Assembly: GCA_947165255.1 (NCBI GenBank)
Contig: CAMUZR010000010.1
Coordinates: 27,984-91,983 of the forward strand
Length of the DNA stretch: 64,000 bases
From: an uncultured Bacteroidales bacterium
GTDB taxonomy: Bacteria > Bacteroidota > Bacteroidia > Bacteroidales > P3
Reading direction: 5' to 3'
Of the stretch, positions 42,285 to 43,486 are shown in pieces. The notes below the pieces were generated by a model. It worked only from the letters and a program-made list of their open reading frames with translations. It did no database searches and had not been told where the DNA came from. The position numbers and the translations under genes are program-made. Positions within the stretch are counted from its first letter, which is position 1. Each line of letters starts with the position of its first letter.

Positions 42285-42818
42285 CTATCCGATAGGGATA
42301 GTATAATCTGTTGAGTAGACTATGTGGTAGTCGTGGATGAGGGATTTGTCGTAAATACAGAGCTGTATAGCTTTGTTGGTGTTGAGAAAGGAGTGTTCGT
42401 TGAAATAGTATCTTTGGTCACCACCGCAGTTCGAGGTTTCGACACGTATTATTTTGAACGGGAAATTCCCATTTTTTCTCATGTCGTACAGAACATATGA
42501 TGCCCGAATTATTTTTTTATGGTAATAGGCTTTGAGTTTGTTTGCATATTGCTCAAAGAATTCACAATGTTCGGGATTGTCGTAGAGGTCGAAGAATGAT
42601 TCTTTTTCAAACACTGCCTTGGCTTGGCAAATAATATAGGGGTTGCCATTATACCATGTTCTCCCCCACCAATGGGCTCGATTGATGTTTCTGTACCAGA
42701 AATAATACCCTCTGCCCAGCCAATGAGATTTCGCACTTTGATAAGGGCCGTGCTGTTCGACTTCGTCAGGATTGTCACGGTCTTCCAAGGTTTGAAAGAT
42801 GGGAGAGAGTTCGGACAT
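42285..42818 (-). CDS. Putative ADP-ribosyltransferase-like toxin of a toxin-antitoxin-chaperone operon
   Basis: 177 aa; QHGPYQSAKSHWLGRGYYFWYRNINRAHWWG resembles the HG...GxGxYF...AxxW ART pattern, plus IQLCIYDKSLI near the C-term; start overlaps the upstream stop (TAATG). Confidence 0.5.
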   Translation of the reverse strand: MSELSPIFQTLEDRDNPDEVEQHGPYQSAKSHWLGRGYYFWYRNINRAHWWGRTWYNGNPYIICQAKAVFEKESFFDLYDNPEHCEFFEQYANKLKAYYHKKIIRASYVLYDMRKNGNFPFKIIRVETSNCGGDQRYYFNEHSFLNTNKAIQLCIYDKSLIHDYHIVYSTDYTIPIG

Positions 42819-43228
42819 TATATGGCTTGCGTATGCGCTTTGAGCTCTTCGCCGAGATCAGAGAGGTTCATGGTGGGAAGAATCATGGGAGGAAAGTTGG
42901 CCTGTAGGGAAAGATTGCTGATGAATGCCCTGACATAAGGGAAGAGTATGGCAATGCTATTGGAATAGAAGTAAGGAGGTATGTCGGCCAATTCGATTTC
43001 GTTTTGGAAACTGTATTCGGCAACGCAATGCACCTCCATAGCGGGTTCATCAGAATTGTTCAGGCAAATCTGGACAGAGAAATGAAGACGGAACAAACGT
43101 TTGTCTTTCTCGAATTGGCCTTCAGGGGCGAACTGGAGTTCGATTTCGTTTTTTTCCTTGGCTTTGGTGAAATCGATTGTTGCCTTTGGGAATTGATAGT
43201 TGTCAAGTTTAAATGCTGCCTTTTCCAT
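42818..43228 (-). CDS. SecB-like chaperone
   Basis: 136 aa; DNYQFPKATIDFTKAKEKNEIELQFAPEG...FRLHFSVQICL...IPPYFYSNSIAILFPYVRAFISNLSLQANFPPMILPTMNLSDLGEEL matches SecB family architecture (PYxRxxIS..xxxxFPPxxLPxxNxxxL). Confidence 0.85.
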   Translation of the reverse strand: MEKAAFKLDNYQFPKATIDFTKAKEKNEIELQFAPEGQFEKDKRLFRLHFSVQICLNNSDEPAMEVHCVAEYSFQNEIELADIPPYFYSNSIAILFPYVRAFISNLSLQANFPPMILPTMNLSDLGEELKAHTQAI

Positions 43229-43234
43229 AACAAA

Positions 43235-43486
43235 TTAAGCTGCCAAAGAATAATCCTTACCGGAAGGGGTGTATTCTGGATTTGTTGGGTTGACGATGTC
43301 GTAGTAGTCTTTGTTTGTTGTCATATAGTTTACAGAGGACTCATGGAAGGAGCGGATGAGATCGTCGGCGGTGGGGCCGTCGTTCATCTCTTCGATGAGG
43401 GCGAGTTGCTCCTGGTACTCTTCGGGGCTCATGGAGTCGAGCTGCAGCTGGAGCCGGTCGAGTATGGCTTGAAGATTGGGTGACAT
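43235..43486 (-). CDS. Putative chaperone-dependent antitoxin (83 aa, acidic, Tyr-rich C-terminus, ends KDYSLAA)
   Basis: MSPNLQAILDRLQLQLDSMSPEEYQEQLALIEEMNDGPTADDLIRSFHESSVNYMTTNKDYYDIVNPTNPEYTPSGKDYSLAA; first gene of the operon, 6 nt before the SecB-like start. ORF-track start at 43564 is upstream of the predicted promoter, so the internal ATG is used. Confidence 0.6.
   Translation of the reverse strand: MSPNLQAILDRLQLQLDSMSPEEYQEQLALIEEMNDGPTADDLIRSFHESSVNYMTTNKDYYDIVNPTNPEYTPSGKDYSLAA

Follow-up and report, generated by a model that had tools for sequence, protein, structure and literature searches.

The question raised by this locus is whether three small genes of a gut-type bacterium (Bacteroidales, Bacteroidota) form a phage defence system and, if so, of which kind. 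The window, the whole stretch of 64,000 nucleotides that was analysed, carries on its minus strand, from 43486 to 42285, what ORF reading shows to be one operon of three intact genes, called A, C and T in the order in which they are read (Table 1). A sequence-only reading had taken them for an antitoxin, a SecB-like chaperone and an ADP-ribosyltransferase (ART)-like toxin, and had likened them to CmdTAC, the present name of the system formerly called PD-T4-9 in E. coli ECOR22 (PMC9519451). We consider it likely that the locus is a Bacteroidota-type CmdTAC, written CmdACT after its gene order: a toxin-antitoxin-chaperone operon which most likely acts by abortive infection and which is carried on a decayed prophage.

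Table 1. The CmdACT operon and the element that carries it, in window coordinates
Feature	Position	Strand	Basis
A: 83-aa antitoxin (CmdA-like), ATG start	43235..43486	-	ORF, family profile, structure model, tail statistics, dN/dS
C: 136-aa SecB-like chaperone (CmdC-like)	42818..43228	-	Pfam SecB, PADLOC PD-T4-9_C
T: 177-aa ART-like toxin (CmdT-like), putative triad Q9-Y39-Q152	42285..42818	-	PADLOC PD-T4-9_A, model, Foldseek, alignment
Bacteroidota-type promoter match TTTG-N16-TATTTTTG, directly upstream of A	43520..43547	-	motif match, function inferred
tRNA-Gly(ccc), integration target	40843..40916	+	
attL: 26-bp 3' end of tRNA-Gly	40893..40918	+	
attR: second copy of the 26 bp (one mismatch), at a distance of 3547 bp	44440..44465	+	repeat search, empty sites in relatives
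Tyrosine integrase, convergent with operon	41017..42177	+	Pfam Phage_integrase 6e-17; phrog_1 integrase 9.5e-28
Y: C-terminal 251 codons of a ~890-aa phage gene, cut at attR	43706..44461	-	
Terminator-like hairpin, probably that of tRNA-Gly, now parted from the tRNA by the element	44480..44523	+	z -7.1; same layout in empty-site relatives

Operon layout and selection

The layout reported from the sequence alone was found in full: the three frames are intact on the minus strand, 6 nt separate A from C, C and T overlap by one base within a TAATG, and every peptide motif that had been quoted is present in the translations. The promoter motif found upstream of A occurs 11 times in the window against 1.5 matches expected from shuffling. 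Between the window locus and its counterpart in a second genome of the genus (L005), changes were mostly synonymous: dN/dS was 0.05 for A (on small counts, 5 synonymous changes and 1 non-synonymous), 0.18 for C and 0.46 for T, and the integrase next to the operon gave 0.09; judging from this pair, the A, C and T frames are under purifying selection. The set of three recurs at well over 100 loci, and the arrangement is thus not a chance one.

The toxin

T matches the PADLOC toxin models PD-T4-9_A, best PDLC04068 (E 2.6e-42) and, less closely, the E. coli-type PDLC04069 (2.7e-9); together with the chaperone match given below, this bears out the CmdTAC-like identity that had been proposed. No Pfam or NCBIfam family was found for T, Pfam gave nothing consistent across 76 toxins and 64 antitoxins, and a PDB sequence search with T or A profiles returned no meaningful match. 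The earlier suggestion of a new toxin family was nonetheless too strong, because PADLOC, if not Pfam or NCBIfam, already holds a model of the subfamily of T.

The AlphaFold2 model of T, obtained with 72 homologues, reached pLDDT 93.8 and pTM 0.88 (four rows from plasmid or phage records were left out of the fold-prediction alignment). Its best Foldseek matches in the PDB were NatT (8qnl/8qnq, probability 0.96-0.97) and VPA0770 (0.95), followed by the ART domains of PARP1; none of the matches fell below E 0.001, and NatT and VPA0770 are about 8-9% identical to T over the structural alignment. NatT is an NAD+-consuming toxin. As modelled, T folds confidently and resembles ADP-ribosyltransferase toxins, the best matches being ART-fold toxins of other toxin-antitoxin pairs; structure prediction had been named beforehand as the check on the 177-aa protein, and its outcome agrees with the ART-like character then assigned to it.

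The residues of the putative triad each stand on their own strand of the model (2-12, 38-42 and 151-155), for Y39 and Q152 as in ARTs. In the alignment of 142 toxins, Y39, which lies in a conserved G-Y-Y-F-W strand, is invariant and Q152 occurs in 138 of the sequences; the first position (Q9 here), assigned from the alignment and the strand positions and not from a solved structure, is Q in 129 of the 142 homologues and H in 12. Set against the published CmdT triad, HY-[E,D,Q] (PMC9519451, PMC11618068), these counts suggest that the Bacteroidota toxins mostly carry a putative Q-Y-Q. The choice between H and Q showed no link to gene order among the 142 toxins: both letters are found in both orders, so the triad change is not tied to the new architecture. 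Sequence identity of T to the toxins of Gammaproteobacteria and of the Vibrio phage is only 19-23%.

The chaperone

C scores 34.5 bits with the Pfam SecB model, above the cut-off of 26 (E 2.2e-8), so that the description of the middle gene as SecB-like holds, and it matches the PADLOC model PD-T4-9_C (PDLC04072) at 4.2e-47. Genome-wide it is the sole SecB match, yet it stays far under every NCBIfam SecB equivalog cut-off, with 27.8 bits at best against at least 102.8. A SecB-like C match of any kind was found in 15 of 399 genomes of the phylum, most of which is without one. When the PDB was searched by sequence with the C profile, designed trefoil proteins came out on top, on a short biased stretch, and SecB followed at E 0.046. 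C directly adjoins T, and thus lies within the distance of two genes from CmdT that the 2024 definition of CmdTAC sets for CmdC. The sequence-only reading had also raised the case of SecB-like homologues that consistently lack both neighbours; close SecB-like homologues do carry A and T alongside. At two other loci (L049 and L120) two overlapping frames stand in place of an uninterrupted chaperone gene, which points to a frameshift, either real or of the assembly, while A and T are intact.

The antitoxin

In its AlphaFold2 model, A has helices at residues 3-18, 21-34 and 40-54 followed by a disordered tail, with pLDDT of 76-93 by block over residues 1-50 and about 50 over residues 51-83. CmdA has N-terminal helices, a long disordered C-terminus and an LAA end (PMC9519451, PMC11618068). 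A terminates in KDYSLAA and the host tmRNA (ssrA) tag is GENNYALAA, so the tail of A resembles the cell's own degradation tag. The earlier portrait of A as a small acidic protein with an aromatic-rich tail and no HTH was fair, although it overlooked the C-terminal LAA, the most telling feature. An AA ending is found in 51 of 127 distinct A tails (about 40%) but in none of 148 C and none of 152 T proteins; 33 of the 127 A tails end in LAA. Where AA is absent, 56 of 74 A tails end in an aromatic motif, [S/G/D]F[F/L/S] (e.g. PKFTSGFF), which may be a chaperone-binding part or another degron.

An iterated A-family profile recovered 146 ORFs in the examined loci, that is, at most loci. A itself went undetected by Pfam, NCBIfam and PADLOC models, PD-T4-9_B giving no match at E up to 10, and only one of 17 A relatives matched PD-T4-9_B, at 0.021. 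By hhalign, the A family does align with a PD-T4-9_B protein encoded by a Vibrio phage (probability 77, E 2e-5); A is therefore probably a homologue of CmdA and not a substitute for it. Judged by these profile searches, A represents a conserved antitoxin family that escapes reliable detection by the models of Pfam, NCBIfam and PADLOC. CmdA varies widely in sequence and was for this reason left out of system calling (PMC9519451, PMC11618068). Of the new antitoxin family that had been claimed, what stands is that no library model detects A; its novelty is otherwise reduced by the relation to CmdA-type antitoxins and by the fact that CmdA variability was already published.

A prophage remnant at a tRNA gene

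The operon belongs to an integrated element of 3547 bp (about 3.5 kb) in which the integrase, CmdACT and the end of Y lie between the 26-bp repeats; genome-wide, only one other site comes within two mismatches of this repeat. The site is empty in five genomes of the same genus (L188, L189, L192, L193 and L195), which have the tRNA, the hairpin and a uvrA-like gene and neither integrase nor operon; in the window, the hairpin stands beyond the second repeat. In L188, tRNA-Gly and the uvrA-like gene are separated by about 0.5 kb of DNA that is unrelated and seems to be the last part of a coding sequence, and the tRNA-Gly site of L188 and of the window may be a recurrent insertion spot. A tRNA-Leu call at 44382-44463 was discarded as spurious, since part of the called span is the tRNA-Gly 3' end repeated at attR.

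Y was considered as an independent cargo gene and rejected as such: the reading frame begins at a stop codon within attR and lacks a start codon at its 5' end, and in three genomes of the genus there are proteins of 886-902 aa whose final ~250 residues it matches, i.e. it is the end of a phage gene. The full-length Y homologues directly adjoin integrases that are 51-59% identical to that of the window, in convergent orientation and in prophage-like regions; a tRNA gene stands beside the integrase in three of the four cases (Arg, Arg, His), and at L224 a tail tape-measure gene is found further along. The window thus holds the remains of such a prophage. The rest of the prophage was deleted and CmdACT occupied the space between the integrase and Y; we infer that it was recombination in the course of this deletion that brought Y up to the repeat. 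L224 to L227 represent a tRNA-integrated prophage family of the genus with the layout tRNA, integrase, convergent ~890-aa gene, and in L224 a reverse transcriptase (phrog_1423, 5.9e-83), perhaps of a diversity-generating element, lies near the tape-measure gene.

In a Flavicella genome (L052), CmdACT likewise sits between prophage holin-side genes and the integrase, next to tRNA-Met, and 14 IMG/VR contigs carry relatives. The distribution of the toxin within the genus is sporadic (4 of 120 genomes, one of them with a fragment).

Gene order and phylogeny

The order A-C-T noted at the outset proved both real and widespread. Some 175 toxin placements comprise 133 A-C-T, 13 T-A-C and 17 C-T without a detected A (several of the latter cut by contig ends), counts that are not independent because many metagenome loci are near-copies. 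Bacteroidota loci usually have A-C-T. Gammaproteobacterial plasmids and the Vibrio phage have T-A-C, with an A too divergent for the A-family profile.

A tree was built from the concatenated T and C sequences of 76 loci, most of them distinct; in it L005, L006 and L007 are the closest kin of the window locus, and A-C-T falls on one side of a branch with the exception of one long row (L168). This branch has moderate support (SH-aLRT 85). The gene-order label needs two changes on the tree, which no shuffle equalled; a single origin of A-C-T is not rejected (p-AU 0.42), but a grouping of the Bacteroidota T-A-C loci with one another is (p 0.026). Because A-C-T is nested in a paraphyletic T-A-C, one permutation explains nearly all of A-C-T, and the simplest reading of the tree would be that T-A-C is ancestral and that T moved to the end once within Bacteroidota. 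Lying upstream, A and C would be made before T, which may lower accidental poisoning.

Proposed mechanism and alternative explanations

CmdTAC of E. coli is triggered by the major capsid protein, acting through CmdC, and ADP-ribosylates GA in single-stranded mRNA (PMC9519451, PMC11618068). By analogy, A would be translated first, and its N-terminal helices would bind T, help it to fold and block it. A tetramer of the SecB-like C would hold the disordered tail of A, hiding the LAA degron. A phage product would draw C away, A would then be degraded, probably by ClpXP, and free T would use NAD+ to ADP-ribosylate mRNA, so that translation would stop before the phage cycle ends. The kinship to CmdTAC from which this analogy is drawn rests on the PADLOC models together with the Vibrio phage and Acinetobacter/Psychrobacter homologues. 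Several observations speak against the CmdTAC reading: the Foldseek matches of T all stay above E 0.001, the first residue of the putative triad is Q in place of H, A escapes the library models, and the genes are arranged otherwise than in the published operon.

The same architecture and regulation could also serve another chemistry, T of the Bacteroidota clade being an NAD+ glycohydrolase or an ART with a different target (tRNA, protein or DNA), which would halt the cell through depletion of NAD+ or by modifying a molecule besides mRNA. We see in this a lesser but real possibility: the best structural neighbours of T, ART-fold toxins of other pairs, include NAD+-consuming ones, so that its target may differ, the published H of the triad is mostly replaced by Q, and the identity to the Gammaproteobacterial and Vibrio phage toxins is low; however, the invariant Y and the near-invariant Q are retained, the H/Q change is not tied to the new architecture and the E. 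coli-type toxin model still matches T. Far harder to defend is the idea that the middle gene is the plain export chaperone SecB with unrelated neighbours. The Pfam score and the lack of any other SecB match in the genome would fit it, but the NCBIfam equivalog scores are far too low, C matches PD-T4-9_C, it sits in a mobile remnant and most of the phylum is without a match; canonical SecB identity was ruled out on these grounds of score, setting and rarity, and we give this explanation practically no credence.

The genomic setting suggests two further explanations. As the operon stands beside the integrase of a tRNA-gene element whose other phage genes are lost save a fragment, and as relatives are found on IMG/VR contigs, it could be an addiction module that mainly keeps the prophage or element in the cell, phage defence being incidental or absent. 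We think this unlikely: such an integrase lies near the toxin in only 14 of 190 sources, several of them duplicates of the window/L005 locus, and the E. coli relative protects its native strain against phage (PMC9519451); moreover, addiction and defence roles are not exclusive. It is very improbable that the operon is a dead relic of the decayed prophage which no longer functions: the surrounding prophage is nearly all deleted and Y is truncated, but the three frames and the integrase are intact and appear to be under purifying selection between two species, and the promoter match is still present.

The CmdACT reading can be extended to a bolder proposal, namely that CmdACT is a distinct Bacteroidota branch which arose by one move of the toxin gene from first to last, with tail-diversified antitoxins and a Q-Y-Q site whose target or chemistry would be other than mRNA ADP-ribosylation, and which prophages carry next to the integrase as a weapon against other phages. 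We offer it tentatively, as a speculation that may well prove wrong.

What the locus adds

The kind of system is already known, and PADLOC models exist for the toxin and chaperone subfamily of the window. As far as the text of the literature shows, the figures of the two CmdTAC papers aside, what appears to be new is A-C-T as a largely single-origin Bacteroidota branch, the definition of the antitoxin family with its degron statistics, the prevailing (putative) Q-Y-Q triad and the prophage-remnant setting. No defence known before CmdTAC acts by ADP-ribosylating mRNA, and how CmdTAC works has been established for a single E. coli system; the present locus shows that an extensive branch in Bacteroidota uses these three components in permuted order, with an antitoxin missed by common search models. 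It provides an evolutionary event open to testing, a single permutation of T-A-C into A-C-T, and a natural panel of antitoxin tails (Ala-Ala versus aromatic ends) for studies of degrons and chaperone addiction. It also raises the question of how a prophage-borne capsid-sensing system avoids firing on the capsid of its own prophage.

Comparison with known systems

Other trios with a SecB-like protein were seen along the way. E. coli FDAARGOS_1287 (L171:3867-5186) encodes, between ogr and the integrase of a P2-like prophage, i.e. at the junction of late genes and integrase, an ART-like toxin whose YHGT motif is clear, a protein of 121 aa that ends in AQAA and a SecB-like protein; matches of this type were found by this search in only 2 of 5,426 E. 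coli genomes. The locus was rejected as a CmdTAC, its toxin matching PD-T4-9_A only at 0.0072, and served only as an outgroup, as a more distant ART-type TAC. Two other Bacteroidota genomes (L232:1483-2694 and L234:563-1854) have, in this order, genes for a HEPN-like protein (132 and 130 aa), a protein of 128 or 153 aa and a SecB-like chaperone; the middle proteins end in ENNYALAA or YYQSAA, and ENNYALAA is the end of the ssrA tag of the window host. This trio looks like an undescribed toxin-antitoxin-chaperone type, the HEPN label being given by eye only.

Among described systems, HigBAC and MqsRAC have a SecB-like chaperone that protects an unstable antitoxin via its C-terminal tail (PMC5105189, PMC6377645). 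They share with the window operon the pairing of such a chaperone with an antitoxin, but their toxins are RelE/MqsR-type endoribonucleases and not ARTs, their order is T-A-C, and no sequence kinship of T or A with them was seen. NatRT of P. aeruginosa and VPA0770/VPA0769 resemble it in the ART-like fold of the toxin, these being the best PDB matches of T (all above E 0.001), whereas both are two-component pairs without a chaperone.

CmdTAC is likened to the window operon by a homologous toxin and a SecB-like chaperone in one operon, by relatives in phages and prophages, and by an antitoxin with N-terminal helices, a disordered tail and an LAA end. The two differ in that (i) the genes stand in the order A-C-T, as opposed to the T-A-C used as a calling criterion for CmdTAC in 2022 (PMC9519451), (ii) the antitoxin is unmatched by the PD-T4-9_B model, (iii) the first position of the putative triad is Q and not H, and (iv) the toxin is closer to PADLOC PDLC04068 than to the E. 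coli-type model. Given its A-C-T order, we file the window operon as a variant rather than as a standard member of CmdTAC.
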